From NCBI RefSeq assembly GCF_020091585.1, contig NZ_CP083583.1:496001-560000 (forward strand): a stretch of 64,000 nucleotides of DNA, in the 5' to 3' direction. The notes beneath the pieces were generated by a model. It was not told the DNA's origin and did no database searches. It saw only the letters and a list, made by a program, of their open reading frames with translations. Below, piece after piece: positions 40,534 to 58,072 of the stretch; position 1 is the stretch's first letter; the number at the start of each line of letters is the position of its first letter. The position numbers and the translations under genes were made by a program. This DNA comes from Kovacikia minuta CCNUW1. GTDB lineage: Bacteria; Cyanobacteriota; Cyanobacteriia; Leptolyngbyales; Leptolyngbyaceae.

Positions 40534-40665
40534 AGGTGGGAGAGGGTGAGAGGGTGAAAGGGGGGAGGGGGGGAGGGTGAGAGGGTGAAAGGGCGGGAGG
40601 GTGAGATAGTAGATAGGCTCTCTACTCCCACTCTCCCACCTACTCTCCCACTCTCCCACTCTCTC

Positions 40666-41424: not shown

Positions 41425-41554
41425 GTCAAAGACCTCAATCTCTAAGAACGACAATGGGAAAAATGAAAATGCTGAATAATGTCGTACAGGCAGTGTGCAG
41501 CGAGTTGACTTTCTAGATATGACCTCGCTCAACCAGTTGGACTAAGGACACTCT

Positions 41555-41570
41555 ATAACTAAGTAGTGAT
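41555..41570 (-). promoter_or_regulatory. ATAACT palindrome site b (before ho2)
   Basis: ATAACTAAGTAGTGAT, 131 bases upstream of the ho2 ATG. It matches the 16-bp consensus ATAACT-N4-AGTKAT shared by six sites in the window. Confidence 0.65.
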
Positions 41571-41713
41571 TAACAGCCCAACGGTTTTCATATCTTAATA
41601 TTCGCACTCCCCCACCCTCTCACCACCCCTTTCCTGCAAAGCACTACCGCTCTTGGCAGGTTTGATCAGCAATCTGTTCGCTGCTACCCTCTAGCCAAAT
41701 AACAGGATTTATC

Positions 41714-41729
41714 ATAACTTTTTAGTTAT
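41714..41729 (+). promoter_or_regulatory. ATAACT palindrome site a (before acsF)
   Basis: ATAACTTTTTAGTTAT, a perfect palindrome apart from its centre, ending 26 bases before the acsF ATG. With site b it lies in the shared ho2/acsF promoter region, so one regulator could control both directions. Confidence 0.7.
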
Positions 41730-41755
41730 CAAGTTTTTTAGAGATACTAAGCATT

Positions 41756-42823
41756 ATGGTGACTTCTCTGCCCAAGCCAAGTCTGGAGACCGTCTCCAGA
41801 AAAGCCATCAAAGAGAACATTCTGACACCCCGGTTTTATACAACCGATTTTGAAACCGCTGCAACGATGGATCTGTCAGCACAAGAGACGGAGTTGCAGG
41901 CAATGCTGGCAGAAATGCGAGCAGATTACAACCGCCATCACTTTGTTCGGGATGAGTCGTTCAATCAATCCTGGGATCATATTACCGGAGAAGTCCGGCA
42001 GGCGTTTATCGATTATTTGGAACGATCGTGTGTCTCAGAATTTTCTGGCTTTTTGCTATTTAAGGAACTCTCGCGCAAGCTAAAAGATCGCAGTCCATTG
42101 CTGGCTGAAATGTTTAGCCTGATGGCACGCGATGAAGCTCGCCATGCTGGATTTCTCAATAAAGCGATGGGTGATTTTGGCTGCACAATGGATCTGGGAT
42201 ACCTGACGAAGAATCGAGTTTACACTTTCTTCCCGATCGAGTGGGTGATTTACACAGTCTATTTATCAGAAAAGATTGGCTACTGGCGTTACATCATCAT
42301 TTACCGTCATCTGGAAAAACACCCTGAAAATCAGTTTTATCCACTGTTTCGTATGTTTGAAAGTTGGTGTCAGGATGAGAACCGTCATGGAGATATCTTC
42401 AAGGCGCTACTACGATCGCAACCGAAACTCTGGCAAACCTGGCAATCCCGGCTGTGGAGTCGCTTCTTCCTGCTGACGGTCTTCGCCACTCACACGCTCA
42501 CCGTTCACGAACGGACTGAATTCTATACGGTGCTGGGGCTGGATGCGACCCAGTTTGATGAAGACGTGATTCGTAAGACCAATGAAACCGCAGCCCGTGC
42601 ATTTCCATCCGTTCTCGACACAGACCATCCAGAGTTTTTCCAACGATTACATACCTGTTCTGATCTCAATTTGAAGATGTCTGACATCGATCGCACGTCT
42701 CAACCCAAATGGTTGAAAACACTCCGTAAATTACCATTCCAGCTTGCGATCGTCGGTCATCTACTGCGGCTTTATTTGATTAAACCCATTGATGCTGAGG
42801 CGTTGCGGGGAACTGTGCGGTAA
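41756..42823 (+). CDS. acsF: Magnesium-protoporphyrin IX monomethyl ester oxidative cyclase (AcsF/ChlA)
   Basis: Di-iron enzyme forming ring E of chlorophyll; 355 residues, normal length. Iron ligands are visible in ARDEARHAGFL near residue 131 and CQDENRHGDIF near 208, with further glutamates in the ERSCVSEF segment. The ATG at 41756 follows the palindrome at 41714. It is divergent from ho2. In species with two copies the second (ChlA-II) is induced at low oxygen together with HO-2 and HemN. The context argues that this is that copy. A BchE-like anaerobic cyclase lies nearby, so both cyclase types are present. Confidence 0.96.
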   Translation: MVTSLPKPSLETVSRKAIKENILTPRFYTTDFETAATMDLSAQETELQAMLAEMRADYNRHHFVRDESFNQSWDHITGEVRQAFIDYLERSCVSEFSGFLLFKELSRKLKDRSPLLAEMFSLMARDEARHAGFLNKAMGDFGCTMDLGYLTKNRVYTFFPIEWVIYTVYLSEKIGYWRYIIIYRHLEKHPENQFYPLFRMFESWCQDENRHGDIFKALLRSQPKLWQTWQSRLWSRFFLLTVFATHTLTVHERTEFYTVLGLDATQFDEDVIRKTNETAARAFPSVLDTDHPEFFQRLHTCSDLNLKMSDIDRTSQPKWLKTLRKLPFQLAIVGHLLRLYLIKPIDAEALRGTVR

Positions 42824-42828
42824 TTGAA

Positions 42829-42862
42829 GGGCGATCGCTCAAAGAGATAGGGGCGATCGCCC
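42829..42862 (+). terminator. Hairpin terminator built from HIP1 sequences after acsF
   Basis: Stem GGGCGATCG (42829-42837) pairs with CGATCGCCC (42854-42862), followed by TTCT. It begins six bases after the acsF stop codon. The T tract is short, so strength is uncertain. Confidence 0.5.
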
Positions 42863-42926
42863 TTCTGCTACACTATTTATAACGTTACTAGCGCGAGAAA
42901 TACTTATCAGTTTCGGGGCAGGATAT

Positions 42927-43073
42927 TTACCACGCCAAGTAAATTTCATGTTGACTCTTATAGGCATGGTTCTGGCTTACACCTGCATAAACCCAGATCA
43001 ACCAAATGGCAACCATCCACTCAAGCACACTTAGAATGTGGATTATCCAGGTTGGAATTGAAAGTACATGCAT
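42927..43073 (-). CDS. DUF2499-like small membrane protein, truncated
   Basis: A 48-residue frame: MHVLSIPTWIIHILSVLEW and then MVAIWLIWVYAG match the opening of cyanobacterial DUF2499 proteins, which are usually about twice as long. After VYAGVSQNHAYKSQ the match fades and the frame stops. It is either a naturally short variant or a gene cut at its 3' end. One membrane span at residues 8-30. It lies downstream of the NPD-family gene on the same strand, 15 bases beyond its end. Confidence 0.55.
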   Translation of the reverse strand: MHVLSIPTWIIHILSVLEWMVAIWLIWVYAGVSQNHAYKSQHEIYLAW

Positions 43074-43088
43074 AATTAGAAATTGCCA

Positions 43089-44210
43089 TTAGGCGATCGC
43101 CACTTCTTGAACACTTGTTAACTCTGCCATCACCTCTGCAACAGACAGGATTCGGTCTGCCCGTCCAACATTCGCTCCAGAGAAAACTAAACCGTTCTCC
43201 ACATCTCCGTGAGCTGCATTCGCAAGGGCTTGAAGAATGCAATAGGATTTGCGACTATCTCGACACAGGCAGTGTTCCAGGCAGTTCGCAATACATCGCC
43301 GCTCTAAATTGGGAGATGCCACAATCGCTTTCTCTGCAAGCGTATTCCGTAAAGCACGGGCAGGCTTACCAACGGGACTGGGGATAATTACTACATCCTC
43401 TGGACGGGCGTGAAGATGAAATTCTTTGTAACGGCGATCAGCATCACATTCTTCAGTTGTGATGAAGCGAGTACCAACTTGCACGCCACTTGCACCTAGC
43501 GCCAACATGCGATCGACATCTGAACGATCCCAGATTCCCCCTGCGGCAATCAATGGAATATTGACCTGTAGCTGATGCTGAAGATAGCTCTGAATCTTAG
43601 GGGTTAAGCTCTCAATCTGGCTATCGAAATCCTCGCAAGTCGTGCCAATATGTCCACCCACGGCTTTAGAATTTTCGACAATGAATGCATCAGGTAGGCG
43701 ATCGTATTTTTCGTGCCAGGTTTGGCAAATTGTTTGAACAGCTTCCAGACCGCATACCATTGGCACTAAAGCGACTTCTGGATGATTGGCTGTGTACTCA
43801 GGTAAATCTAAGGGCAATCCTGCGGCGGTAATGATTAAATTTGCCCCATTTTCAGCCGCCGTTCGTACCGTGACAGGATAATCTTTCGTTGCAATTAAGA
43901 TATTGACTCCAATGATTCCAGTAGGGCTGAGAGCACGCGCTTTTTGCAGTTCATCAATTAACGCCAATTGATTGGCAAGGAAAAAATTGCCACGTCTGAT
44001 TTGAACGTTGAAGTAGGGGGAATTCAATCCTAGTCCTAGTGATGAGATCACACCCACACCTCCCGCGTTGGCAACGGCTCCTACCAAGTTAGCCCCAGAA
44101 ACTCGCACAGCCATTGCTCCTTGAACGATTGGATAATGGGCAATGTGATGCCCAATTCTGAGCGTTGGCAGCGGTTCCTTCAGAGTTGCGCTTTGCGCTA
44201 ATCGCAGCAT
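43089..44210 (-). CDS. NPD-family FMN oxidoreductase (nitronate monooxygenase/FabK-like)
   Basis: A TIM-barrel flavin protein of about 373 residues from the ATG at 44210 (the frame is open to a TTG at 44228, but that overlaps a palindromic operator). Motifs: HYPIVQGAMAVRVSGANL, VANAGGVGVISSLGLG and GGIWDRSDVDRMLALGASGVQVGTRF, with FMN-phosphate glycines. A cysteine-rich C-terminal segment, RRCIANCLEHCLCRDSRKSYC, is unusual for plain nitronate monooxygenases and could bind metal or a cluster. In this family the substrate cannot be read from sequence; an enoyl reductase role is possible. It is adjacent to arsR and shares the regulatory motif. Confidence 0.85.
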   Translation of the reverse strand: MLRLAQSATLKEPLPTLRIGHHIAHYPIVQGAMAVRVSGANLVGAVANAGGVGVISSLGLGLNSPYFNVQIRRGNFFLANQLALIDELQKARALSPTGIIGVNILIATKDYPVTVRTAAENGANLIITAAGLPLDLPEYTANHPEVALVPMVCGLEAVQTICQTWHEKYDRLPDAFIVENSKAVGGHIGTTCEDFDSQIESLTPKIQSYLQHQLQVNIPLIAAGGIWDRSDVDRMLALGASGVQVGTRFITTEECDADRRYKEFHLHARPEDVVIIPSPVGKPARALRNTLAEKAIVASPNLERRCIANCLEHCLCRDSRKSYCILQALANAAHGDVENGLVFSGANVGRADRILSVAEVMAELTSVQEVAIA

Positions 44211-44227
44211 ACGAAATATTTCACTCA

Positions 44228-44243
44228 ATAACTAGATGGTGAT
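44228..44243 (-). promoter_or_regulatory. ATAACT palindrome site e (before the NPD gene)
   Basis: ATAACTAGATGGTGAT, 17 bases upstream of the ATG at 44210. It matches the shared consensus in all but the central bases. Confidence 0.6.
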
Positions 44244-44285
44244 TGAGTAATCATAACCCTTCAAGCACTAAAACTCAATACACTC

Positions 44286-44717
44286 TTAACGCCGTGAACT
44301 GGACGCTTGCTCTTGGGTTCTGGTTTTTTGCGATCGGGGACCTTTTCCAGAAGTGCTGCTATTAGCTTGAAGGGAAGCGGCTTGCAGAAAAGTTTCAGCT
44401 TGTTGTTGCAGGCGATCGCCAATCTGACCACAGGCGAGTTCACAAAACTCAAATACCAGCGGATCGGTGATTTCATAGTAAGCGCTGGTTCCCTTAGCTT
44501 GACGCGAGAGAATTCCTGCCTGGGTCATGACTTTGAGATGTTTAGAGAGGTTTGCCTGCCCCAAGCCAGTCTCTTCACACAGTTCCATCACATTCATCGG
44601 CCCCAACCTGAGACATTGCAGAATGTGCAACCGGCTCGTCTCCGACAGAATTTTGAAATAGTCCGCAATGGCTTCAAGGACAGTGATAGGAACTAAGGAT
44701 TTCGTAGATTTCGGCAT
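44286..44717 (-). CDS. ArsR-family transcriptional regulator
   Basis: A 143-residue winged-helix repressor type: ISETSRLHILQCLRLGPMNV (helices 1-2) and the recognition helix GLGQANLSKHLKVMTQAGIL near residue 52, then the wing KGTSAYYEI. Cysteines sit in LQCLRLG, ELCEETG, FEFCELACGQI; two or more could form a thiol switch or metal site. The last 35 residues are serine, lysine and arginine rich. Divergent from psbA across 320 bases, with two palindromes (44747, 44952) between them. It is the natural candidate for the factor binding the six ATAACT palindromes, including one in its own promoter. The inducer (oxygen, sulfide, redox) is unknown. Confidence 0.85.
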   Translation of the reverse strand: MPKSTKSLVPITVLEAIADYFKILSETSRLHILQCLRLGPMNVMELCEETGLGQANLSKHLKVMTQAGILSRQAKGTSAYYEITDPLVFEFCELACGQIGDRLQQQAETFLQAASLQANSSTSGKGPRSQKTRTQEQASSSRR

Positions 44718-44746
44718 TGGGTTAGGAGGAATACCACGTAAGGTTA

Positions 44747-44762
44747 ATAACTATATAGTATT
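44747..44762 (-). promoter_or_regulatory. ATAACT palindrome site c (before arsR)
   Basis: ATAACTATATAGTATT, 30 bases upstream of the arsR start. This suggests autoregulation. Confidence 0.65.
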
Positions 44763-44951
44763 TTAGTGTCCTCTGGGGGCGATCGCACTATTTCCAGTGA
44801 AAATCCTGTTCCACGTCAACAGCTTCACAAATCAGATGATTCCTGCTCGCCAAAATTCGACGAACTCCCCTCTGCTGCGATGTTTATAAACAGCAAAGGA
44901 CTCGCAACAACGGAGATTGAGCCAACGTTTAATAAACAGGGTTGACCTTAT

Positions 44952-44967
44952 ATAACTTTATAGTTAT
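44952..44967 (+). promoter_or_regulatory. ATAACT palindrome site d (before psbA)
   Basis: ATAACTTTATAGTTAT, immediately followed by an overlapping half site (ATATAGTTAAT), about 74 bases before the psbA ATG. Confidence 0.7.
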
Positions 44968-45040
44968 ATAGTTAATTATGAAATCTAGATCTACCAAGAT
45001 TTCGTAATTGCATTCTTATCCAATTTACATTCACTGAATC

Positions 45041-46150
45041 ATGACGACACTTTTACAACGGCGCAGTCGCACCAGTTTTTGGGATCGATTCTGTAACTGG
45101 GTGACTAGCACTGAGAATCGTTTGTATGTGGGTTGGTTTGGGGTTTTGCTCATTCCAACGGCATTGGTGGCAGCGATCGTCTTTATTCTGGCGTTTATCG
45201 CTGCACCTCCAGTTGATATTGACGGGATTCGCGAACCTGTCAGTGGCTCTTTGTTGTATGGCAACAATATTATTACGGCGACGGTTGTGCCTACGTCTAA
45301 TGCGATCGGGCTGCACTTCTACCCTATCTGGGAAGCGGCTTCTTTGGATGAGTGGCTCTACAATGGTGGTCCCTATCAAATGATCATCTTTCACTTTCTG
45401 ATTGCGGTTTATGCCTATATGGGGCGTCAGTGGGAACTCAGCTATCGCTTGGGGATGCGCCCTTGGATTCCAGTTGCCTTCTCTGCTCCGGCCTCTGCGG
45501 CAACCGCTGTGCTATTGGTTTATCCAATTGGACAGGGGAGCTTCTCGGATGGTTTAATGCTGGGAATTTCTGGCACATTCAACTTCATGATTGTATTTAC
45601 GGCTGAGCATAACGTGCTGATGCATCCGTTTCACATGCTGGGTGTGATTGGAGTTTTTGGAGGTGCTCTATTTTCCGCCATGCACGGGTCATTGGTGACC
45701 TCCTCTCTAATTTGTGAAACGAGTGAAGCGGAGTCACAAAACCAGGGTTACAAGTTTGGTCAGGAAGCAGAAACCTACAACATTGTGGCAGCGCATGGCT
45801 ATTTCGGTCGATTGATTTTCCAATATGCCTCATTCAACAATTCCCGTGCATTACATTTCTTTCTGGCAGCCTGGCCTGTGATCGGCATTTGGTTTGCGTC
45901 TTTGGGGATCAGTACGATGTCGTTTAACCTGAATGGGTTCAATTTCAATGAATCGATTCTAGATAGCCAGGGAAAAGCGATTCCCACCTGGGCAGATGTG
46001 CTCAACCGCGCCAATTTAGGAATTGAGGTGATCCATGAGCGCAATGCACATAACTTCCTGCTCGATCTGGCTTCTGGTGAAGCGCAACCGCTTACCCCAA
46101 AAGGGGAACTGCTTCGCACCGCTCTGGCAGCACCTGCAATTTTCAGCTAA
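45041..46150 (+). CDS. psbA: Photosystem II D1 protein, D1-prime (low-oxygen) form
   Basis: Reaction-centre core subunit of 369 residues. All catalytic residues of the oxygen-evolving site are kept: Tyr161, Asp170, Glu189, His190, His332, Glu333, His337, Asp342 and Ala344 at the processing site. It departs from standard D1 at the three diagnostic positions of the D1-prime class: Ala80 (Gly), Leu158 (Phe) and Ala286 (Thr; Leu in some). Other differences are Thr187 for Gln, Cys225 for Arg and Leu340 for Pro. The cleaved C-terminal extension is 25 residues instead of the usual 16. D1-prime forms are expressed when oxygen is low. An ATAACT palindrome and arsR stand directly upstream. Confidence 0.95.
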
Positions 46151-46197
46151 TCTCAACGGTTCACTTTCACATCTGTGATCAGTGTTTGATGAACAGC

Positions 46198-46222
46198 GCG
46201 CCCATTATAGGGCGCTTTCTTT
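46198..46222 (+). terminator. Rho-independent terminator after psbA
   Basis: GCGCCC, loop ATTATA, GGGCGC (46198-46215), then TTTCTTT. It is 48 bases past the psbA stop. Confidence 0.8.
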
Positions 46223-46248
46223 GCATGGTTGCGAATACAAGAGTCTGG

Positions 46249-46794
46249 TTAATGCTGGTTGAGCCACCACTCCAATAAAACAGCGCGGCATTGTAAGCAA
46301 CTCATTTCCTGCAACAACTGGTGAACTCCAGTTGAGTTTTTAGGATAAGTGCTAACCACAGACTCAGACAATAATGTTATGTCCTGAACATGAGCGACAA
46401 AACCATAAAGTTTCTGGTTGGAGAAGGAACTGTTGACTGCCCAACCGTGCGGATTTAAAGGAGTCAGTCTGGTGATCGCGGCTGAAACAATTCCTAGCTC
46501 TCGTTGAAGCGTGGCGATCGCTGCCTCTGTAGGGGTTTGTCCTTCTGGAACCCGACCACCGGGAAAGTCTAAAGTCAATTGTCCGACTCCGGGACGGTAG
46601 CTTGGGGAGGGAAGCAAAATCCGATCGCTCTGAATCGGCAGTATGATCACAGAGTCTGCCTTTTCAATCCGCCAATATTCGAGTTGTTGTCCTTGAGGAG
46701 TTTGCAGATGCTCCCCAATTAGTGTCAACCACTGAGAGCGCAATTCAAGGAAGCGATTTTTGACTTGCCAATCACGTTCTGATGAAGGTCGCAT
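46249..46794 (-). CDS. Nudix-fold protein with degenerate catalytic box
   Basis: A 181-residue protein with the layout of an ADP-ribose-type Nudix hydrolase: strand VIILPI, then LDFPGGRVPEGQTPTEAA. The Nudix box is worn: the expected REUXEEXGU reads ATLQRELGI, and the last glutamate of the GGxxxxGE loop is Gln. The metal-binding glutamates are therefore partly lost and hydrolysis is doubtful. Other conserved parts, including LNPHGWAVNSSFSNQKLYGFV, are intact. It may be a regulatory or binding paralogue. It is convergent with psbA, separated by the terminator. Confidence 0.7.
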   Translation of the reverse strand: MRPSSERDWQVKNRFLELRSQWLTLIGEHLQTPQGQQLEYWRIEKADSVIILPIQSDRILLPSPSYRPGVGQLTLDFPGGRVPEGQTPTEAAIATLQRELGIVSAAITRLTPLNPHGWAVNSSFSNQKLYGFVAHVQDITLLSESVVSTYPKNSTGVHQLLQEMSCLQCRAVLLEWWLNQH

Positions 46795-46872
46795 TTATAA
46801 CGCTGCTGAGATGACGAGGGTTCAGAACTAACCAGGATGTCAGTAAGCGATCACTTGAAATCACCGAACTTC

Positions 46873-47551
46873 TCAGCACCAGGATTGCTCTCCCGGTGGG
46901 TTATGGAGCAACTCGCGAATGTTGGCTTCGATTACCCGGTATCCTACATTTCCGTTGAGTCGTTGTCGTCCCTCATTGAAGATTAACGTGGGGCTGACCG
47001 ATACGGTATGTTCCTTTATCAGATCGAAATCTTTGGAGAGTTGGGCGTATGCTTCACCGCTATCAATTTGCTTTTGGATGTCGGAGATCGGCAATCCCAA
47101 CTCGTCTGCAATGGCAAATTGTACAGTGCGATCGCTGACATTTGCCAGTTGCGTAAAGAAGCGTTCTCGAAAGGTCGCAGATTGCCTTTTCAAATACGTT
47201 TTCTGATTTTGGGATAATTCCCTTAATTTCCAGCAGTTGAATTGCATGGAGAAACAAATGACAAGATGTGGATGATGGGGGAGTGGTCTCGGTCCAGATA
47301 TCAGGATGAACGGTAATGTGATCGAATTTCTTCGCAACCTCTTGAACGTGGTTGCTGTATCCCTTTAAGCCACCGCGATCGCGCCAGCCATTCTCTAGCT
47401 TCTCACGGGCATTACCGAAAATGGGAACAAAATGATAATCGACTGAGATCTTGTCTTGAAAATTAGTTTTCAACTCATCCAGACGAATTTGAGCAATATA
47501 CGCCCAAATACAAAGAATATCGGAAAAGTATGAAATACGAATGGATTCCAT
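46873..47551 (-). pseudogene. DsbA-family oxidoreductase (2-hydroxychromene-2-carboxylate isomerase-like), frameshifted
   Basis: The N-terminal frame (start 47551) reads ISYFSDILCIWAYIAQIRLDEL, the thioredoxin-fold entry of the DsbA/HCCA-isomerase family with a single cysteine in place of CXXC. Near 47170 the frame breaks; the other frame continues RERFFTQLANVSDRTVQFAI, then ADELGLPISDIQKQI and VSPTLIFNEGRQRLNGNVGYRVI to the stop at 46873. One extra T (three adenines at 47170-47172 on the plus strand) accounts for it. The rejoined protein would have about 225 residues. Apart from the one base the coding sequence is sound, so a sequencing error is possible. The substrate is unknown. Confidence 0.8.
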
Positions 47552-47709
47552 TGGGTTTAAGTACTAGGAAAAGGAGGTAGTAGGAGATTAGCCTTAAAAG
47601 AAAAAACTTTACTAAAAAATTCGTTGGAAGGACATCTCTCTAATTTAGCCATTAGGACAAAGATTTGTATTTTTATTGCCTATTAACAACGAGTGTTGGA
47701 ATGCACGTT

Positions 47710-47740
47710 GAGAGGTTTTGGTAAATCTCCAAAACCTCTC
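47710..47740 (-). terminator. Perfect hairpin downstream of the 47779 gene
   Basis: GAGAGGTTTTGG (47710-47721), seven-base loop, CCAAAACCTCTC (47729-47740). It is a strong stem between the 47779 gene and the DsbA-like gene. No long T tract, so termination or mRNA stabilisation are both possible. Confidence 0.5.
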
Positions 47741-47778
47741 AAATTCAAGAAGACCTATTTCAAGCGATGCATCTCACG

Positions 47779-48669
47779 CTATACAGTAGCTAGGGCACTT
47801 AAATCAAGATGCGCTGGAGTTCCAGTTGCATGAGTTACCTCAACATTGTAAGTAACGTCAATTGTTGTAATGCCAAAACTTTGGTATGTCTGGAGATAAT
47901 ACTCCGTAACTTGTGCAGGTGTAGCCCCTATAATTTGATCGGGCTTGGGGTTTTCTATTCCTGGAATTCCAATCTGACGATCTCCGTCCAGATCTTTAAC
48001 TTTTATTTTACTAAGATCGATAGTTCCGCCAAAATGAATTGTATGACTACCTGCCGACAAAGGATTGAGCATCACCCAATAGCCGTCAGCAGTGGCATGC
48101 TCAACGGTAACTGATCCTAATGAGTAACTAAATGCATCTGGAGACTGCTGCCGAAATTGCTTCCAAGCTCCTCCATTGATCAATGACTTACTATCGACTT
48201 CATAAAATAAATCCTGACTAAATTGCACAGCATCTATTATAGTTTTGGTGAGGTATCGAGAATTTCCTGTACTCCAACTAGATGGAAATCCAGCGGTATC
48301 TGCTTCTGAATTGAAAATTGGAGCGAATAGGTATGTTGCATCATCCACTTGAATATTTCGTACCAAGGGATCACCGATAGCGCCTGTTAGCATTTGTACA
48401 GAGCCGTTTTTTTCGGGGATACCATTATCATCCAATTTACCAGTTAATACGGTCTCCCACCAGATATCTTCCCATACAGCTTGAGATTTACCGTCTACCG
48501 GTTTGTTTGGTTTCACTACTTCAATGGATGCATTGCAGCTTTTATTTAGTTTTAGAGAAGCATCTAAAGCAGAATTTGATACCGGAGAATGTTGAATCTC
48601 AGTTGTTAGAGCACCGGAATGGTGATTAACATTTAACGGAAAATGATTTTGTTCATGTCTAAAATTCAT
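47779..48669 (-). CDS. Hypothetical protein with a C-terminal beta-rich domain
   Basis: A 296-residue protein I do not recognise by name. No signal peptide or membrane span. The first 60 residues look disordered. Then SQAVWEDIWWETVLTGKLDDNG and a segment, GYWVMLNPLSAGSHTIHFGG, resembling a conserved motif of secreted proteins of unknown function. The C-terminal half includes VKDLDGDRQIGIPG and YNVEVTHATGTPAH. Lower GC than the neighbours. About 400 gene-free bases precede it, so it has its own promoter. The motif AGSHTIHFGG is a handle for finding homologues. Confidence 0.55.
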   Translation of the reverse strand: MNFRHEQNHFPLNVNHHSGALTTEIQHSPVSNSALDASLKLNKSCNASIEVVKPNKPVDGKSQAVWEDIWWETVLTGKLDDNGIPEKNGSVQMLTGAIGDPLVRNIQVDDATYLFAPIFNSEADTAGFPSSWSTGNSRYLTKTIIDAVQFSQDLFYEVDSKSLINGGAWKQFRQQSPDAFSYSLGSVTVEHATADGYWVMLNPLSAGSHTIHFGGTIDLSKIKVKDLDGDRQIGIPGIENPKPDQIIGATPAQVTEYYLQTYQSFGITTIDVTYNVEVTHATGTPAHLDLSALATV

Positions 48670-49072
48670 TGTGTTTCACCATTGAATTCATCAGTTTTGA
48701 TCTTTTACAAGAAGAGATGCATGCTAAATTTTTCACACTGTTCTCTTTGAGTTTTTACGCTCAGTAATTGCAACGTTTTACAATATTTAATAGGTTAAAA
48801 ACCGAAATGCGCTGAAGAGACAGCGTGGTAGAGTATACCCTCTATACAGCATAGAGAGAGGCGTCTTCCTGATTGCTGCAACTCTTGAAATGATGAGGCT
48901 GGTTAGTCAGAATCGCTATAATTATTATCGCAACTCCTAGATGAAAAGACTTAATCTCTTAACTAATTTTCACTTTTTATACATCCGTAAATAAAGTTGA
49001 ATAGTTTTACTAATAAGAGTGTGAATAATCAATCAAAATGGAATTTACTAGTATCTGATGTGGCTTTTGTTA
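48670..49072. other. AT-rich gene-free stretch
   Basis: AT-rich DNA between the hypothetical gene and the RND pump gene. It probably holds the promoter of the 47779 gene. No repeat or RNA gene was recognised. Confidence 0.5.
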
Positions 49073-52000
49073 TCACTTAATTATTTCATTACTCAGGAGC
49101 TTGGCAGCGAGCTGATTCACGTCAGGGTTAGGATTTTTCTGGTTTCTTTTGCGATCGCGCCAGAGTTTGTAATAGAGAATTGGGACTGCCGATCGCGACA
49201 GTAATAAAGATGCCACTTCACCTGCCATTAACGAAATAGCCAAACCCTGAAAAATGGGGTCAGCCAGAATAATTGCTGAACCAACAACGACAGCAGCAGC
49301 CGTGAGCAGCATGGGACGGAACCGGACGGCTCCAGCATCGATGACCGCTTCTTCTAAGGGCATTCCTTCCTTCAGACGCAACTCAATGAAGTCCACCAGA
49401 ATGATGGAGTTTCGCACGACAATTCCGGCTCCCGCAATGAACCCAATCATGGATGTGGCAGTGAAGAATGACCCCATCAACCAGTGGGCAGGCATAATTC
49501 CCACCAACGAGAAGGGAATCGCTGCCATGATGACAAGGGGAGTAGTAAACGATTGAAACCAACCCACTACCAGCGCATAAATCAATACCAGCACTACAGC
49601 AAACGCAATTCCCAAATCTCGGAAGACTTCGTAGGTAACTTGCCACTCGCCATCCCACTTGATGGCATAGGTTTCGGTAGTGGGCGGTTGTTGGGTGAGG
49701 TAAGTGCTGAGTGCTGAGTGCTGAGTGTTGAGTGCTGAGATTTTGGGTTGCAGGTTGAGCATGGCGTAAACCGCGCTCTCGATTCTGCCGGATACGTCGC
49801 CGAGAACGTAGACAACAGGCTGCAAGTTTTTGTGATAGATGCTGGTGTCTGAGATCGCAGTTTCCGTTTTCATCAAGGCACTCAACGGCACCAAATTGCC
49901 GTTAGTTCCCTTCAGTTTGAGTGATCTCAGGTCATTTAAACGGGTGCGGCTCAATTGGCTGAAACGCAGGTTAATTGCCACATCTTCACGGGCATTTTCA
50001 TCGTGCAACAGTCCGACATTTTGACCCGCGAGCGCCATTTGTAGGGCTTCAGAAATTTGAGTCGGACTAACGCCGTTCAACGCTGCTTTTTCGCGATCAA
50101 TGACCAATCGATAATCCGTCTGGGGTGCTTCGGTATACCAGTCCACATCTACAACGCCATCCGTTGTTTGATACAACTGACGAATTTGGGTTGCCAGGTC
50201 AATTTGTCCCTGGTAATCGGGTCCGTATACTTCCGTTACCAGGGTTTGCAATACGGGAGGTCCAGGGGGAATTTCAGCAACCTGAATACGGGCACTGTAG
50301 CGATCGCCGATTTCTTTCAGCTTGGGGCGAATCGCTTTGGCAATATCGTGACTCTGACGGTTGCGATCGCTCTTCGGTAAAAAATTCACCTGAATATCCG
50401 CAACATTCGCACCCGATCGCAAAAAATAATGTCGCACTAATCCGTTGAAATTATAGGGAGACGCTGTACCGACATAACTTTGATAGTTAATGACTTCGGG
50501 AACCGTTGCCAGATATTGTCCCATCTCTCGCGTCACTCTAGCAGTCTGCTCCAATGTCGTACCCTCTGGCAGGTTCACCACGACTTGGAGTTCGCTTTTA
50601 TTATCAAAGGGCAACATTTTCAGAATGACCAGCTTAAAGCCTGCTAACCCACCGACAATCACAATCAGAGCCAATACGGTTGCTACCAGAAACGTTGTGC
50701 CGCGACGAGGATAATGCACCAGAGGATACATAAACCGGCGATACAAACGGCTCAAAGCATCTTCTTCAGAGTTGTGGGCAGAGTGGCTGGCACCGCTAAA
50801 TACGCGCATGGTTGTCCAGGGAACCACAATAAATGCCACCAATGCTGAGAAAATCATGGCAGCGGAGGCACCCAGCGGAATGGGACGCATATAGGGTCCC
50901 ATTAAGCCACCGACAAATGCCATCGGGAGGATGGCTGCAATCACCGCCAGCGTTGCCAGAATGGTAGGATTACCCACTTCGTCTACCGCTTCCAATACGA
51001 TTTGCTGTAGAGTGCGACGACGATTGCGGGACTGCTGCAACCGGGTTTTGTTTTCTGGCAATTGCAGATGACGACCGACATTTTCCACCACCACGATCGC
51101 ATCATCCACCAAGATCCCAATCGAGAAGATCAATGCAAAGAATGTAACTCGATTCAGCGTAAACCCATAAAAGACAAAACTGGCAAGGGTCAGTGACAAC
51201 GTGACAGGAATTGAGACAGCAACCACTATTGCCTCTTTCTTGCCCATCACAAACCACATCAGCAGCGTGACCGAGCCGACAGCAATCAGCATGTGGAACA
51301 GCAATTCATTCGATCGCTCGGCGGCTGTTTCGCCATAATCGCGAGTCACCGTTAAATGAACATTATTGGGAATATAGTTATGTTTAACTTGATCAAGCTT
51401 ATGGAGAACCCGATGGGAAACCTGGATCGCGTTGGCACCAGAACGCTTAGCAATTGAGATCGTGACTGCTTCGGTTTCACCTGAAAGTTTTGAATTTTGA
51501 ACCTCCCCTCTGCCCTGTCCAAAAAACACATAACTGGCGGGTTCTTCGGAACCATCCACTACAGTTGCCACATCCCGCAGGTAAACGGGTTGGTTGTTGG
51601 CAACCGAAACCACTAATCCTTTTGCATCTTCTGCCGATCGAATGAAGCTTTGGGTTCGAACTAGAAACGACTGATTGTTTTGATTGAAGGCTCCGCTCGT
51701 AAGTTCAACATTTTGAGTTTGAAATGCTTTCGATATTTCTAATGGGGTTAATCCAAACGCATTGAGTCGGGTTGGATCGAGATCCACCCGCAGTTGGCGC
51801 TTTTGTCCACCGATAATCGTCGTTTCGGAGACATCTGGAATCTGTTTGATTTGTTCCTCTAATTGTGCGGCGATCTGTCGTAGTTCTGCCCCGGTGCTTT
51901 GTTCGCCCCACAAGGTTAAGGTGAGAATCGGGACATCATCGATCGATCGCGACTTAATCAATGGTTGGGAAACGCCATGTGGAATTTTGTCAAAGTTGGC

Positions 52001-52396
52001 ATAAAGTTTGTTGTAGAGCTGGACGATCGAATCCTCTGTATTTTGTCCCACATAGAATCGCACAATCACCAGGGATGAACCCGAACGGGATGTGGAGTAG
52101 ACATATTCCACACCAGGAAGTTCTTTGATTAATTTCTCCATCGGTGCAGTGACTCGCTGCTCCACATCCTTTGCAGACGCTCCTGGCATTTGCACAAACA
52201 CATCTGCCATCGGCACAGTGATTTGGGGTTCCTCTTCACGCGGTAGAATCAGAGTTGCGCCAATTCCCAAAAGCAGTGCCACCAGGATGATTAATGGTGT
52301 CAACTTGGAATCAATAAATTGTTTTGCCAGATTACCAACGAAACCTAATGTATGAGGTTTTGTAGGCTTGTGGTTACTTTGTGAGCCATTGTCCAT
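49073..52396 (-). CDS. RND-family efflux transporter, inner-membrane subunit
   Basis: Proton-driven pump of 1,107 residues, normal for the HAE1/AcrB-like RND class. The N-terminal span is followed by periplasmic porter domain [21 protein letters not shown], then a second set of membrane helices with [20 protein letters not shown] near residue 430 (the proton-relay aspartates), and the mirrored C-terminal half ([19 protein letters not shown]). Residues near 895-905 ([15 protein letters not shown]) are a translated tandem repeat (agtgctg units, about 49701-49745). The gene follows its adaptor subunit with a 15-base gap. No outer-membrane channel gene is adjacent. Substrate unknown. Confidence 0.93.
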
Positions 52397-52411
52397 GTTG
52401 ACCTCATCCTC

Positions 52412-53731
52412 TTAGGGTTGGGTAATCACTGGCTGTCCATCGCTGAGTTGAGCCATGTGATTGGTAATGATGCGATCGCCCGTCGTCAAGCCTGAAACAA
52501 TCTCTATCTGACCATTTTGTTGTCGTCCAGTTTTCACCCAACGCAACACAGCAACTGGTTGAGCAGCATTAGTATCTACCACATAAACTCCCTGTAATTG
52601 CCCACGTTGAATCAACGCACCCGTGGGAATGAGCATGGTTTCCTGTTTTTCACCGGAAGGTAAGGCAATGCGTCCAAACATTCCCGAAATGAGGCGACCG
52701 GAATTGTGCAACGGAATTTTGATTAGAAAGCTACGCGAGTTGGGGTCTGCGGCTGGAATAATTTGTCCAATGTTGGCTTTAAACGTTTGGTTAAGTGCAT
52801 CAACCCATACCTGCACTGACTGCCCAGCTCGCACAAAACGTAAGTTCTCTTCTGGCACAGAGATCTCTAGTTGAAGCCGATCTGGGTTCTCGATTTTTAG
52901 CAAGGCTGTCCCAGGAGCCGCCATTTCGCCTTCGTAGGAAAGCTTTTGCACCACAACGCCATCAAAAGGGGCAAGAATCGTTCCGTAGCTTTCACTTGCC
53001 GACGCGGAGGTTACACCAGATTCCGCTCGGTTCAGCGCTGCCCGTGTCTGGGCGATCGTCGCCCGTGCCTGTCGAATCCCTGCTTCAGTTTGAGTAACCC
53101 GTGCTTTGGCTTCATCCAGGGCTGTATTTGCTTCATCCAGTCGAGATTGGGCAACCGCTCCCTCGGCTTGGAGTTGTTTCATCCGAGACTGGTTGATCTG
53201 TGCCAATCGCAAGGCTGCTTGAGCCTCCAGTTTTTCAGATTCCAATTGGTTCAGTGTTGCCTGAGAACGCGCAACTTCTGCCTGTGCCTGAGCTACGCCT
53301 GATTGTGCCTGACTGGTTTGGGCAGACATGTCCATCACATCAATCCAGGCAAGAATATCACCTTTTTGGAAACGATCGCCCGCCTCCAGAGATAGGTGTG
53401 TAATCCGACCCATGACCCGTGTTGACAGCGTTGCTTGATCGACAGGACGAATTGTACCGGAGAGGTCTAAAGTATTGACAAGCAGTTGAGGATGAATGGT
53501 TAACGTTTCAACGGTTGTTGTTGGAGCTAATGCAGACTCAGGGGCGTGGGTCGAGCGAGTGAGTTGCAAAATGCCCCAGGCTCCGACTGCCAGCAGCAAG
53601 GCACCCCCCAACAAGAGTCCCCACCCTTTCCGAGAAAACCCTGATGCAGGCAGCGTTTTTTGCTCAATTGCTCCCTCAGTTGTCTGATTGAGCGATTGAT
53701 CTAGCGGTTGCTCTGAAGTCGTGTGGGTCAT
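52412..53731 (-). CDS. RND efflux periplasmic adaptor subunit (membrane fusion protein)
   Basis: A 439-residue adaptor of the AcrA/HlyD type: a membrane anchor at about residues 35-55 (GWGLLLGGALLLAVGAW), a lipoyl-like half, a long alanine/glutamine-rich coiled-coil hairpin from about residue 130 to 235 (QAQAEVARSQATLNQLESE), then the second lipoyl half YGTILAPFDGVVVQKLSYEG and beta-barrel domain. It bridges the pump encoded just downstream with an outer-membrane channel. It is first in the operon, and a MITE A copy lies about 100 bases upstream. Confidence 0.93.
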   Translation of the reverse strand: MTHTTSEQPLDQSLNQTTEGAIEQKTLPASGFSRKGWGLLLGGALLLAVGAWGILQLTRSTHAPESALAPTTTVETLTIHPQLLVNTLDLSGTIRPVDQATLSTRVMGRITHLSLEAGDRFQKGDILAWIDVMDMSAQTSQAQSGVAQAQAEVARSQATLNQLESEKLEAQAALRLAQINQSRMKQLQAEGAVAQSRLDEANTALDEAKARVTQTEAGIRQARATIAQTRAALNRAESGVTSASASESYGTILAPFDGVVVQKLSYEGEMAAPGTALLKIENPDRLQLEISVPEENLRFVRAGQSVQVWVDALNQTFKANIGQIIPAADPNSRSFLIKIPLHNSGRLISGMFGRIALPSGEKQETMLIPTGALIQRGQLQGVYVVDTNAAQPVAVLRWVKTGRQQNGQIEIVSGLTTGDRIITNHMAQLSDGQPVITQP

Positions 53732-53834
53732 AGATCAAGCCTTCCTCCCGATTGTAAGGTGATGATGTGATGAGGATGATGGGGAAGATGTGGAGTGATA
53801 GGAAAGGGATTGTTACCAAAATCAAAATTCTAAG

Positions 53835-53955
53835 GAACAAGAATTAAATAACATCGACTTTTGTAGGTTGGGTTGAGTCTGCGAAACCCAACATCTGCGG
53901 GGGTTTTGGGTTTCATACTTCAACCCAACCTACGCAGGTTATTTAATTCGCGATC
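53835..53955. mobile_element. MITE family A, copy 3 (121 bp)
   Basis: Same ends as the other two copies and near-identical to copy 1, but flanked by CTAAG at 53830-53834 and 53956-53960. The right-hand CTAAG supplies the rhodanese stop codon on the minus strand. Confidence 0.85.
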
Positions 53956-54297
53956 CTAAGGGTAACTTCCACGGTGTACGCTATATCCTTTACCCTGCCA
54001 CGCCAGTAAACCACCCTGGAGATTGTAGACCTGACGATAGCCCTGAGACACGAGCCACTGAGCAACGATCGCACTCCGATGTCCCGAAAGACAGGTAACC
54101 GCGATCGCCTGGTCTTTTGAAATGTTTTTCAAAATGCGACTTTGGTTTATCCGTTGTGCGCCTGGAATGTGACTCATCCAGTATTCAAACCAACCTCTGA
54201 TATCAACGACTAAAAGTTGATTTTGCCTTGATTTAAGTTGAGCAGGAGTGAGTAAAATCGGATTCCCAGTTTGTTTTTTAGTTGATTTCATGTTCAT
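53956..54297 (-). CDS. Rhodanese-like protein
   Basis: A 113-residue single-domain sulfurtransferase: QLLVVDIRGWFEYWMSHIPGA, and the active-site loop VTCLSGHRSAIVAQWL with catalytic Cys near residue 71. The loop sequence CLSGHR is typical of rhodaneses that handle persulfide. It lies next to SCP-2 and DUF3122 genes and near a sulfide:quinone oxidoreductase, which suits a role in sulfane-sulfur transfer. The last codons (SYP, stop) are formed by the CTAAG duplication of the adjacent MITE, so the insertion has fixed the 3' end here. Confidence 0.88.
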   Translation of the reverse strand: MNMKSTKKQTGNPILLTPAQLKSRQNQLLVVDIRGWFEYWMSHIPGAQRINQSRILKNISKDQAIAVTCLSGHRSAIVAQWLVSQGYRQVYNLQGGLLAWQGKGYSVHRGSYP

Positions 54298-54311
54298 AGT
54301 ATTAGCCTTAT

Positions 54312-54707
54312 TTAAACTCTACCCATGACAGCAAATGATTTGATGAAGGGACCTGCCATGCGTGGATCTTTAATCATGGAGGCGTAATCTCCCACACGGA
54401 ATTGCAACCTGCCGTTCATATACGCCATACCCAATCCCATCATATTCAACCCTTTGGTTTTCCACTGTTCCAAGTGTTCACGGTCAGTACGTAAATCCCA
54501 ATTCAATGGTTCTCCGTTGTAGGCACCCGCAGCAGTCACCCGTCCTTCCTGAACCGTTATCACGCCTCTTGGGTTTGGATCGTTCTTAAAACCATAGCCA
54601 ATCACAGAATTAAAATGAATCTTGGCAAGGGCATCGGCTAACTCTGGTTCTGCATTCCATTGCTCACCAAACATCTGCATCCATTCGGGTGAAAATAGGT
54701 CTACCAT
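54312..54707 (-). CDS. SCP-2 sterol transfer family protein
   Basis: A 131-residue soluble protein of the SCP-2 lipid-transfer fold: WMQMFGEQWNAEPELADALAK, GVITVQEGRVTAA and a QFRVGDYASMIKDP tail. A frame extends to a GTG at 54719, but that GTG lies inside the Shine-Dalgarno (GTGGAGGAA), so the ATG at 54707 is the better start. The ligand is unknown. It is in the same orientation and cluster as the rhodanese (15 bases apart), DUF3122 and an ArsR regulator, suggesting one transcript. Confidence 0.82.
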   Translation of the reverse strand: MVDLFSPEWMQMFGEQWNAEPELADALAKIHFNSVIGYGFKNDPNPRGVITVQEGRVTAAGAYNGEPLNWDLRTDREHLEQWKTKGLNMMGLGMAYMNGRLQFRVGDYASMIKDPRMAGPFIKSFAVMGRV

Positions 54708-54732
54708 TGATTCCTCCACATTAATTTGGACA

Positions 54733-55299
54733 TTATGCGTAACTAAAAACGGCTTGCCATTCTTGTATAAGCGAAGGTGGAATGGATAGATGAATGACTT
54801 CCCTCTTGATGGTGGATACCGATAGCTTTAGGGGAATCTCTGCCTGCAACTGGGGTAGGAGAGGTTGCAGGTTATACTGCCCCACATTAGGTTCGGGTTT
54901 CGCTGTCTCAGCAAAGAGATTGTTGGAGGTATCATCAGCAGCTAGCTTCTTGCCCAATGAATTAACCAACGTCAGTGGCTGAGAATGGTCAATTTCAGTG
55001 ACACCGGGAAAGCATACCAGACGCAAATCAAAACTGGTTTTTCCATCAGAACGAATGCGTTTGAAGGCGATCGCCTGCCAGGTATTGCCATGTTGATCTT
55101 TCAAAGATTGTCGCGATTGATAAATCATCTGTCCTGGGGCTTCCTCTAATTGCTGAATCGCTGCTGCTGCACGGGGAGAATTGAGAATCCCCAATCCCAG
55201 GAGAATCCCTAAAACAATTGCTCCCAACAGCAATGACCATGAAAGAAACGACCGAATTCGACATCCTATTAGTGTTTCTCTTCTCATCATTTGAATCAT
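54733..55299 (-). CDS. DUF3122 family protein (membrane-anchored)
   Basis: A 188-residue protein of a family largely confined to cyanobacteria. One hydrophobic span at about residues 18-38, followed by AAAAIQQLEEAPGQMIYQSRQ and a beta-rich region FDLRLVCFPGVTEIDHS. I take the ATG at 55299, because the frame above it would overlap the ArsR gene; that gives an N-terminus MIQMMRRETL then the membrane span, probably a periplasmic-facing anchor or signal peptide. Function not known. It is four bases after the ArsR stop, so surely co-transcribed. Confidence 0.75.
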   Translation of the reverse strand: MIQMMRRETLIGCRIRSFLSWSLLLGAIVLGILLGLGILNSPRAAAAIQQLEEAPGQMIYQSRQSLKDQHGNTWQAIAFKRIRSDGKTSFDLRLVCFPGVTEIDHSQPLTLVNSLGKKLAADDTSNNLFAETAKPEPNVGQYNLQPLLPQLQAEIPLKLSVSTIKREVIHLSIPPSLIQEWQAVFSYA

Positions 55300-55303
55300 C
55301 CCG

Positions 55304-55600
55304 TCATTTTTCTTTAACGTTTGCTCGTATTCGACTACAAAGTTCGAGCAGTTCCATATCAATCACCCGGTAATATCGCCAAATCCCTTCCCGACGACAT
55401 GCCACAACTCCAGCATCTTTCATTAGCCGTAAGTGTTTGGACACGTTGCCCTGAAGTAACCCAGTGCGATCGCAAATCTCCTGCACACTTCGTTCCTGCC
55501 CGCAAATTTCCGCTAAAATCTGGAGTCTTGCGGGTTCTGCCAGCACTTTAAACCGACTTGCGAGAATTTCCAGTTCCCCAGGATTGAAGACAATTTCCAT
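55304..55600 (-). CDS. ArsR-family regulator (SqrR/BigR-like candidate)
   Basis: A 98-residue winged-helix protein from the ATG at 55600. It has KVLAEPARLQILAEICGQERS and the recognition helix GLLQGNVSKHLRLMKDAGVV. Cysteines in EICGQ, EICDR, VACRR and LELCSR are placed where sulfide-sensing SqrR/BigR proteins carry a reactive pair, but I cannot confirm the match. It heads a minus-strand unit with DUF3122, SCP-2 and rhodanese genes and lies beside the sulfide:quinone oxidoreductase gene. Translation upstream of 55600 enters repeat sequence and is not part of the gene. Confidence 0.8.
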   Translation of the reverse strand: MEIVFNPGELEILASRFKVLAEPARLQILAEICGQERSVQEICDRTGLLQGNVSKHLRLMKDAGVVACRREGIWRYYRVIDMELLELCSRIRANVKEK

Positions 55601-55751
55601 ATCTCTTCTGGTAGTTCTATTTGAGAAAGGATGGAGAATAACTGAGTGATGATGAGAGGGTGAGAGCAAGCGAGGGTGAGGGGGTGAGCGGGCAAGAAGA
55701 TAGAAAATTAACTTCTCACACTCCCACGCTCCTACACACCCATCCTCCCGC

Positions 55752-57047
55752 TCACCCTTTTACCTGAATCAGTTCTGACTCTGGAACGATCGACTCCACC
55801 AGCGGTAGACCGATCGCCCGCAGTCCGATCCGCTCAAACCAGGGCATTGTCCAGCCCACCCGCATTTTGTCCATAAAGTATTTCTCAAATGCCGTCTTTG
55901 CCCACGATACCCAGACTCCTTTGGTTGTAAAGGCACGACGTCGATGCCCTTCACTATCTGGCAGCAGGGGATCTGCCAGGAATAATGCACCCGTATCCCC
56001 AAAGTCAGCAAAGCAAATCGCCTGCAACGTTGGTTTGATTGGTTGACCCGAAATCACTCCCAAATCAAGTGCAATGTTGTGAGCAACGGTCATCACCATT
56101 TCTTCCGTCATCTGCCCCACCTTGGGTACACCAATGGGGATGGGAGTGGGTTCCACAGGTTTGAGTTGCGTGACAACGCCAACCGCATAAACGGAGTCAA
56201 ACTCAGGATGGCGATACGTGGGCAGCACCGGCACAAATCCTTTTGCATCGGTTAGTCTTGGCGCTTCTCGGAGAAAGCGAGGACCCCGAAAAGGAGGCAA
56301 AATCATGGCATATTTGAACGGCAATTTACGTCCATCTGCCAAATGCACAGCATCTGGCTCAATCTGAGAAATCGCTGCATTATCAATGACATCGACATGA
56401 CGATCCGCCAGCATTGCCCGAATCAACCAGCGTGAATTTGCCATCCCCCCAATTCCCAAGTGTCCAGCATAGGGTTCTGGTGTGACCAGCGTGATGGCGA
56501 CTCGATCGCGCAGTCCCTTCCGCCGCAGCGTATGGTGTGCCAGCAGGGCAAATTCATAGGCAGGCCCAAAACAACTCGCTCCGGGTGCTGCTCCCACAAC
56601 GATCGCTCCAGGGTCTTGTAAATACCGCTCCCAGGCTTCTCGCGCCAATAAGGCATGGTGAGGGTTACAGATTGACTGGGTGTAGCCTGTTTCAGGTCCT
56701 AATCCGGGCAGGGCATCCAGTGCCAGTTCTGGTCCTGTTGCAATCACCACATAGTCGTAGTCCAGCGTTCGATTGCTCAATGTCACTTGATGCAACCTTG
56801 GATCGATCGCCGTGATCGAATCATGGATGAATTCAATCCCATGTCGAGGGACAATTTTGGCTAACTCTAGCTGAATTCGATCCAGCGATCGTAAACCCAA
56901 TCCAACCCAGGGTAATGAAGGGACAAAGGTAAACTTTGGTTGATTAGAGACCAATGTAATTTGATGATGATGAGGTAACAGATGCCGTAGCTCATAGGCA
57001 GCAGGCAATCCCCCCAAACCAGCACCAACAATCAAAATGTGAGCCAT
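55752..57047 (-). CDS. Sulfide:quinone oxidoreductase-like FAD protein
   Basis: A 431-residue flavin disulfide-reductase family member: the Rossmann motif HILIVGAGLGGLPAAYELRH at the N-terminus, YDYVVIATGPELAL, and the cysteine regions ASCFGPAYEF (about residue 160) and AICFADFGD (about 345), the positions of the redox cysteines in SQR. SQR oxidises sulfide to sulfane sulfur and passes electrons to quinone. The upstream region carries an ATAACT-type palindrome shared with psbA and acsF. The nearby rhodanese and ArsR support sulfide use, possibly anoxygenic electron donation in the light. Exact SQR type is not assigned. Confidence 0.85.
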   Translation of the reverse strand: MAHILIVGAGLGGLPAAYELRHLLPHHHQITLVSNQPKFTFVPSLPWVGLGLRSLDRIQLELAKIVPRHGIEFIHDSITAIDPRLHQVTLSNRTLDYDYVVIATGPELALDALPGLGPETGYTQSICNPHHALLAREAWERYLQDPGAIVVGAAPGASCFGPAYEFALLAHHTLRRKGLRDRVAITLVTPEPYAGHLGIGGMANSRWLIRAMLADRHVDVIDNAAISQIEPDAVHLADGRKLPFKYAMILPPFRGPRFLREAPRLTDAKGFVPVLPTYRHPEFDSVYAVGVVTQLKPVEPTPIPIGVPKVGQMTEEMVMTVAHNIALDLGVISGQPIKPTLQAICFADFGDTGALFLADPLLPDSEGHRRRAFTTKGVWVSWAKTAFEKYFMDKMRVGWTMPWFERIGLRAIGLPLVESIVPESELIQVKG

Positions 57048-57167
57048 AGCTGTGACTCCTAAAAAAATGAGTTTTTAATTTTTATCCTTTCCTACAGGAA
57101 GTTAGCTCAGCAAATTTCTCTGGAGCTCAACGGACTGACAATATTGTTAAACCTATGTTTTTACTAT

Positions 57168-57183
57168 ATCACTATATAGTCAT
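57168..57183 (-). promoter_or_regulatory. ATAACT palindrome site f (before the sulfide:quinone oxidoreductase)
   Basis: On the minus strand: ATGACTATATAGTGAT, 121 bases upstream of the start codon. It is the only member of the six that lies outside the 41-45 kb cluster. Confidence 0.65.
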
Positions 57184-57206
57184 AAATATGATTTACGTGC
57201 TTTAAT

Positions 57207-57827: not shown

Positions 57828-58051
57828 ACTACGGCTCCTTTTAGGATGTGAATTTCTGCGGGTAATGAACTGAGATACCCGTGGTTGCCTGAATGCGATC
57901 GCCAAATGCTTCTAAGACATCACCGCTAACCGACTTGAGTGTCGAGCAAAATAGGGCTAGCTGTCAGCATTCGCAACTGTTGACTTAATGATTGTTACCG
58001 CTATTTTGCCCCTACCGTTCAGCAGCTTTTGTTTCTCCCTACAGTAAATCA

Positions 58052-58072
58052 ACAAGTTGAGGAAGTTGTGAG
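58052..58072 (-). promoter_or_regulatory. Direct-repeat promoter motif, copy 7 (before the radical SAM gene)
   Basis: On the minus strand: CTCACAACTTCCTCAACTTG (CAACTTC-CT-CAACTTG), then six bases and TACTGT. It is less well matched in the -10 and has a long leader to 57827. Confidence 0.55.

Follow-up and report, generated by a model that had tools for sequence, protein, structure and literature searches.

The stretch analyzed here is a 64-kb window of the genome of the cyanobacterium Kovacikia minuta CCNUW1 (contig NZ_CP083583.1, positions 496,001 to 560,000; coordinates below count from the first base of the window). It carries six copies of a 16-bp palindrome, with the consensus ATAACT-N4-AGTTAT, next to genes for photosystem II (PSII), tetrapyrrole synthesis and sulfide oxidation. 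The psbA gene (45041..46150, plus strand; over the TIGR01151 cut-off) encodes a D1 protein of the low-oxygen type, D1'. On alignment, its product has Ala80, Leu158 and Ala286 in place of the Gly, Phe and Thr of the genome's own standard D1, and we take these to be the hallmark positions of low-oxygen D1' (psbA1 type). Upstream lie acsF2 (41756..42823, plus strand), a second aerobic Mg-protoporphyrin monomethyl ester cyclase gene (over cut-off for NF010172 and TIGR02029, and so placed in the tree), and, divergent from it, the heme oxygenase gene ho2 (40666..41424, minus strand; PF01126). Between acsF2 and psbA are an NPD/nitronate monooxygenase-like gene (43089..44210, minus strand; PF03060) and arsR1 (44286..44717, minus strand), which encodes a candidate repressor of the ArsR family. 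A sulfide:quinone oxidoreductase (SQR)-like gene, sqr, is found farther on (55752..57047, minus strand; PF07992 over cut-off). The sqr label rests on an earlier note on this DNA and on gene context; the product is below the NCBIfam cut-off, with the best model, SQR_III_seleno, giving 107 of 525 bits, and that model covers one subtype.

That note, made from the sequence alone, had placed six palindromes in this cluster, each 5' of a start codon, and all six were recovered when a mismatch scan was combined with the gene positions. All are intergenic. The copies before acsF2 (41714..41729) and in the psbA core promoter (44952..44967) are perfect; the ho2-proximal copy in the divergent ho2/acsF2 region (41555..41570) has one mismatch to the consensus, and those before the NPD gene (44228..44243), arsR1 (44747..44762) and sqr (57168..57183) have two each. 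The distances from palindrome to start codon are 130 bp for ho2, 26 bp for acsF2, 17 bp for the NPD gene (ATG at 44210), 29 bp for arsR1 (taken from the coordinates), 73 bp for psbA and 120 bp for sqr. Each can be regarded as a putative operator, and the one before arsR1 would imply autoregulation, in line with the earlier observation that the ArsR-type gene of the cluster itself bears a site. Variants of the arsR1 site, for example AATACTATATAGTTAT, occur in relatives at -43 to -57.

The six sites can be recovered with no input from the window. For this we collected, from relatives, the neighborhoods of ArsR1 homologues and acsF2 genes, annotated them with the window proteins, and trained a matrix on 14 psbA promoter sites of the relatives, the window being excluded. 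The six top-scoring matrix positions in the 64 kb were exactly the six sites: psbA (22.3), acsF2 (21.2), arsR1 (16.0), NPD (15.9), sqr (15.6) and ho2 (14.9). The seventh position, at 32969, scored 12.3.

Conservation of the sites was then assessed in the relatives. Rows were dropped where the N-terminus was not covered, where fewer than 200 bp of upstream sequence were available, where identity was below a per-gene cut, or where upstream regions were near-identical, which reduced the sets from 108 to 72 (arsR), 27 to 16 (psbA), 48 to 39 (acsF2), 33 to 26 (ho2), 22 to 13 (NPD) and 13 to 12 (sqr). In some divergent promoters one site is common to two genes. Allowing up to two mismatches within 250 bp upstream, a site was found before 15 of the 16 psbA-D1' genes (against a mean of 0.59 and a maximum of 5 for 59 permuted half-sites), 32 of the 39 acsF2 genes (mean 1.93, maximum 12), 14 of the 26 ho2 genes (mean 0.90, maximum 5), 9 of the 13 NPD genes (mean 0.46, maximum 4), 33 of the 72 arsR1 homologues sharing 55% identity or more (mean 3.66, maximum 13) and 3 of the 12 sqr genes (mean 0.59, maximum 3). 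With the matrix, at a threshold set to the 99% point of dinucleotide shuffles, the counts were 34/39 for acsF2, 19/26 for ho2, 9/13 for NPD, 38/72 for arsR and 4/12 for sqr over the same 250 bp, and 16/16 for psbA, where the count is partly circular, the matrix having been trained on 14 of these sites. Some sites before sqr lie farther out: within 420 bp the matrix found them in 8 of 12 cases, a count that none of 200 permuted matrices attained over the same width (mean 0.38, maximum 7), although the enlargement from 250 bp was made after the farther sites had been noticed and is partly post hoc. Over the matrix threshold, hemN had a site in 1 of 19 cases, NUDIX in 0/9, rhodanese in 0/5, BchE in 0/4 and NrdG in 0/3. 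The five other psbA genes of the K. minuta genome have no site.

Overall, in 53 of 68 genomes one or more target genes are preceded by a site, and these 53 come from 16 of 21 family-level groups. In 35 genomes this holds for at least two target genes, and 15 lack such a site altogether. These 68 genomes were picked by ArsR1 or AcsF2 homology rather than at random, often with one stretch per genome. Perfect palindromes were counted in 388 genomes; in the 56 that are ArsR1-positive there were 60 in the forward orientation and 37 in the control, a weak difference that holds for this subset. In a single genus (g41 of family f23), perfect palindromes numbered 28 against 10 for the reversed control over 26 genomes.

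The strong matrix matches in relatives also point to further members. There were 111 of them in 98 loci, 89 before a homologue of one of 17 reference proteins, 18 before other open reading frames (ORFs) and 4 coding or unassigned. Five loci (L065, L115, L117, L118, L146) have a site before genes for persulfide dioxygenase-like proteins of the metallo-beta-lactamase fold; three of these proteins were scanned, and the two put to NCBIfam matched GloB and Blh below cut-off. A site also precedes a second oxygen-dependent coproporphyrinogen oxidase gene, hemF, in three loci (L063, L110, L160), a YgaP-like membrane protein gene in two (one scanned), and DUF2214, DUF4079 and HdrC-like iron-sulfur protein genes in one case each. 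For example, in Nostoc spongiaeforme FACHB-130 (L118) the site stands before persulfide dioxygenase-like, rhodanese and TauE-like genes and before an arsR gene of a second clade (clade B, described below). Next come a D1' psbA, whose site is weak (11.5), then a DUF2214-like gene and finally an SQR-like gene that lacks a site over threshold; TauE and DUF2214 were named by eye in this locus. The Nostoc loci L115, L117 and L118 all combine persulfide dioxygenase-like, rhodanese and clade B arsR genes, with D1' psbA and an SQR-like gene nearby in L115 and L118. Taken together, the comparative sequence data provide strong support for a regulon, conserved in cyanobacteria and wider than first stated, that joins sulfide oxidation to D1' and to the low-oxygen enzymes of tetrapyrrole synthesis. 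The NPD/nitronate monooxygenase-like gene, by its site in 9 of 13 relatives, counts as a member.

The position of the palindrome within the D1' promoters is informative. In 13 of 16 such promoters, from relatives and the genome itself, the palindrome is preceded at 4-5 bases by a TTGAC[ACT] box, and 15 of 16 have a downstream box that agrees with TATAAT at four or more of its six positions and is partly formed by the 3' end of the palindrome, with -35/-10 spacers of 17-18. In the window, the putative -35 box of psbA is TTGACC (44942..44947, plus strand) and the putative -10 box, overlapping the palindrome, is TATATA (44965..44970, plus strand). Lying between the -35 and -10 boxes, the palindrome has the position expected of a repressor operator, the occupancy of which would exclude RNA polymerase. 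In 7 of 16 D1' promoters, including that of the window (44960-44980), there is an extra AGTTA-like half-site 3' of the palindrome, which may extend the psbA operator. Of the 34 site-bearing acsF2 promoters, 26 have their best site at 12-78 bp from the start codon and the other 8 at 143-228 bp.

The obvious candidates for the binding protein are the ArsR proteins. ArsR1 belongs to the ArsR/SmtB family (PF01022, 42.9 bits for a cut-off of 22; NF033788, 76.6 for 55), with predicted helices and a wing, and its predicted fold gives Foldseek matches to ArsR-family structures. The earlier note had recognized arsR1 and overlooked a second ArsR gene in the window, arsR2 (55304..55600, minus strand; domain-model matches), which adjoins sqr. 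The weak match at 55638, 5' of arsR2, was not accepted as a site: 6 of its 16 positions are symmetrical, and its score is outside the 14 best matrix matches. A third, related ArsR is encoded elsewhere in the genome (G000:C1:1297031-1297381) and belongs to a separate clade, C. The recognition helices of clade A, which includes ArsR1, and of clade B mostly read GLGQAN[LV]SKHLK, and that of clade C reads TSQANVSKHLK. The site is present before many clade A and some clade B arsR genes, and a related palindrome, AT[AG][AG]CTCTATTGCTAT, precedes nine clade C genes from the window's family. Self-regulation is common among ArsR repressors. ArsR1 has cysteines at positions 35 (predicted helix 2), 47 (helix 3), and 92 and 96 (helix 5); among 21 homologues Cys92 is invariant and Cys96 nearly so. 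For a clade B protein, SqrR is the best relative of solved structure (E = 8.4e-10), and the helix-2 Cys is aligned.

We propose that the six palindromes would be the operators of one regulon. Binding by an ArsR-group protein is suggested because arsR genes themselves bear the site and because a clade B arsR sits in the persulfide operons, and ArsR1 is probably the main binder here, as judged from sequence. In aerobic, sulfide-free cells, a homodimer of an ArsR-group repressor, here mainly ArsR1, would occupy the core promoters and block RNA polymerase. The least certain step is the release: the arrival of sulfide or persulfide, or a fall in oxygen and thiol redox, would modify the repressor cysteines (Cys92 and Cys96 in helix 5 and, for this clade, Cys35 in helix 2), and we consider the chances about even between sulfide/persulfide on the one hand and oxygen or thiol redox on the other as the signal. 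The modified dimer would depart from the DNA, such that the cell would make D1', SQR, the NPD enzyme, the second cyclase and heme oxygenase together, the last along with the hemN-bchE product encoded behind ho2. The outcome would be that PSII, pigment synthesis and sulfide removal switch as one block.

Several observations weigh against this reading. Sites over threshold are missing from 34 of the 72 arsR1 homologues and, even over 420 bp, from 4 of the 12 sqr genes, including that of Nostoc L118. Part of clade A has no Cys35, and the variant palindrome is missing before the genome's own clade C gene. Finally, an AcsF tree splits AcsF2-type from AcsF1-type promoters, and the AcsF2-type site was found in 33 of the 44 genomes that have a clade A or B (A/B) ArsR and in 6 of the 8 that do not. 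Here presence of A/B was defined as a match at E <= 1e-31, and G150, which matched at 9.3e-32 but whose ArsRs are, apart from a clade C protein, unrelated, was counted as without. About 29 acsF-positive genomes had no A/B gene; 23 were examined, the rest having no listed coordinates or being left out. Since the AcsF2-type site is equally common without an A/B ArsR, proteins of the ArsR1 type are not needed for its upkeep in those genomes. The notion of one regulon under ArsR control, as the earlier note had it, is strongly supported in its first half, with sites conserved in most of the family-level groups examined; for the second half an ArsR-group protein is the best candidate.

The palindromes might have arisen by chance in AT-rich spacers. 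A genome-wide count of the motif, which the earlier note had proposed as a check, gave no signal at up to two mismatches (339 sites, against 361 for the reversed control), and within the window the enrichment is modest as well, with 32 sites at up to three mismatches for 20 +/- 5 in shuffles, 3 of 100 shuffles being as high. At higher stringency, the 8.56-Mb genome has just two perfect palindromes, both in this cluster (acsF2 and psbA). Eleven one-mismatch sites lie outside it; six of them are within ORFs of at least 174 aa, and two of the other five (L005, L012) are no more than 300 bp before an ORF. Chance is, however, refuted by the window-blind matrix test and by conservation: the same promoters bear the site in distant genomes, and permuted half-sites never reach the psbA, acsF2, ho2, NPD and arsR counts. 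We consider it extremely improbable. An RNA element as the explanation was rejected, as Rfam gave no match in 40000-58500. It might also be supposed that the sites are boxes for ChlR, the known activator of the low-oxygen regulon. ChlR is a MarR-type protein (Synechocystis sll1512) that controls chlAII-ho2-hemN and, in Synechocystis, psbA1 (PMC4500134), so that its targets overlap with those described here; its box is TTMCC-N3/4-GGWAA (PMC5295598, PMC13421787). These facts are drawn from reviews. That box occurs in 0 of 34 acsF2, 0 of 16 psbA and 0 of 19 ho2 promoters bearing the palindrome, and in the window there is no match to its N4 form at up to one mismatch between 39.7 and 52.6 kb; among acsF2 promoters without the palindrome it was seen in one of five. 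ChlR boxes are thus a very improbable account of the sites.

Two other alternatives concern the identity of the protein. The main binder could be the widespread clade C ArsR, in which case ArsR1 would be just one regulon member among others or an additional, specialized binder. Four near-complete genomes (G333, G150, G323, G044) have the acsF2 site and clade C with no A/B gene found, and the related palindrome before the nine clade C genes points the same way. Against it, eight genomes have the site and an A/B protein but no clade C match, clade C without A/B goes with no site in G224 and in six AcsF1-type promoters, and the absence of a site before the genome's own clade C gene counts here too; we regard this alternative as unlikely. 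By clade, the AcsF2-type site was found in 25 of 30 genomes with both A/B and C, 8 of 14 with A/B alone, 4 of 5 with C alone and 2 of 3 with neither. For AcsF1-type promoters, all 3 genomes with an A/B ArsR had the site and none of the 15 lacking one did, these genomes being clustered by kinship. Neither A/B nor C ArsRs are strictly required for the acsF2 site. The other alternative is that a factor outside the ArsR group binds, the arsR genes being mere targets. No single ArsR clade strictly co-occurs with the site, and two genomes have it with no A, B or C match. However, those two genomes are incomplete (68% and 73%), and related sites precede the own genes of three paralogous ArsR clades, as in self-regulating ArsR repressors; an outside factor is distinctly unlikely. 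Among the 52 genomes, every one above 90% completeness that has the acsF2 site also encodes an ArsR of clade A/B or C, although this completeness-filtered comparison is weak because nearly all 52 have one of these proteins anyway. Control by an ArsR-group protein, with ArsR1 the probable binder in K. minuta, is thus the reading that we retain.

How would such a system relate to those already described? The ChlR regulon shares low-oxygen tetrapyrrole genes and, through psbA1 in Synechocystis, a psbA gene with the palindrome regulon. It differs in its protein family, its box and its mode of action as an activator, and sqr is not named as a ChlR target in the parts of the reviews at hand. With SqrR and BigR, the proteobacterial persulfide-responsive repressors, ArsR1 has the ArsR fold in common, and clade B resembles SqrR in its aligned helix-2 Cys and in having its genes beside persulfide dioxygenase-like, rhodanese and SQR-like genes. 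However, ArsR1 is far below the BigR model cut-off (31.7 of 155 bits), its Cys35, not general in clade A, is displaced by one residue from the SqrR column, and the palindrome regulon additionally takes in PSII and tetrapyrrole genes. RexT, a cyanobacterial ArsR-family H2O2 sensor and thiol-based repressor, has the operator ATTCG-N15-CGAAT, the target trxA2 and a vicinal Cys40-Cys41 pair (PMC8960804); in contrast, ArsR1 has no adjacent Cys pair and its putative operator is different. As(III)-sensing ArsR proteins carry a CXCXXC motif on helix 3 (PMC8960804), whereas ArsR1 lacks it and has the single Cys47 on that helix. Grim and Dick (2016) reported 15 genomes in which a low-oxygen psbA lies near sqr, counted 27 sqr genes close to arsR, suggested linked regulation of low-oxygen psbA and sqr, and considered the arsR genes an attractive target (PMC5061849). 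The accessible text of that paper gives no operator ('palindrom' occurs 0 times) and does not join the tetrapyrrole genes to this proximity. Our literature search recognized no published operator or regulon of this kind, most subscription papers being outside its reach.

The remaining genes near the six sites deserve brief mention. Behind ho2 and probably co-transcribed with it is a single ORF (37078..40659, minus strand) that joins hemN to bchE and a response-regulator domain (TIGR00538 and TIGR02026 over cut-off; PF00072). The response-regulator domain is C-terminal to the bchE part, and in the relative locus L073 hemN is separate and the fusion of bchE to this domain is kept. Downstream of sqr-arsR2 is a rhodanese gene (53956..54297, minus strand; PF00581). 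Next to it, 54312-54719 (minus strand) encodes a 135-aa protein with no Pfam match at E 0.1; it stands beside rhodanese, arsR2 and sqr in the relative L074 too (76% identity). Elsewhere in the genome, L171 (G000:C1:4884028-4885035) is a psbA paralogue of 61% identity with an N-terminal extension, Ala for Asp170 and an altered C-terminus; from these features it would be a D1-like protein that is unlikely to take part in water splitting.

In its widest form, the proposal is that one old ArsR-group repressor system across cyanobacteria, separate from ChlR, changes PSII over to D1', redirects tetrapyrrole synthesis and induces sulfide/persulfide oxidation, all in one block, via an operator in the D1' core promoter. 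We put this forward tentatively, at slightly less than even confidence. Strains that have chlAII-ho2-hemN and no chlR probably use another mechanism (PMC4500134). If the proposal is true, the ArsR-group system would be the missing regulator in strains without ChlR, and the operator would be the cis-regulatory basis of the psbA-sqr linkage. The conserved operator, the gene list and the candidate protein make both linked psbA-sqr control and ChlR-independent control directly testable. The coupling of oxygenic photosynthesis to sulfide in cyanobacteria bears on the biology of sulfidic mats and on the early Earth.

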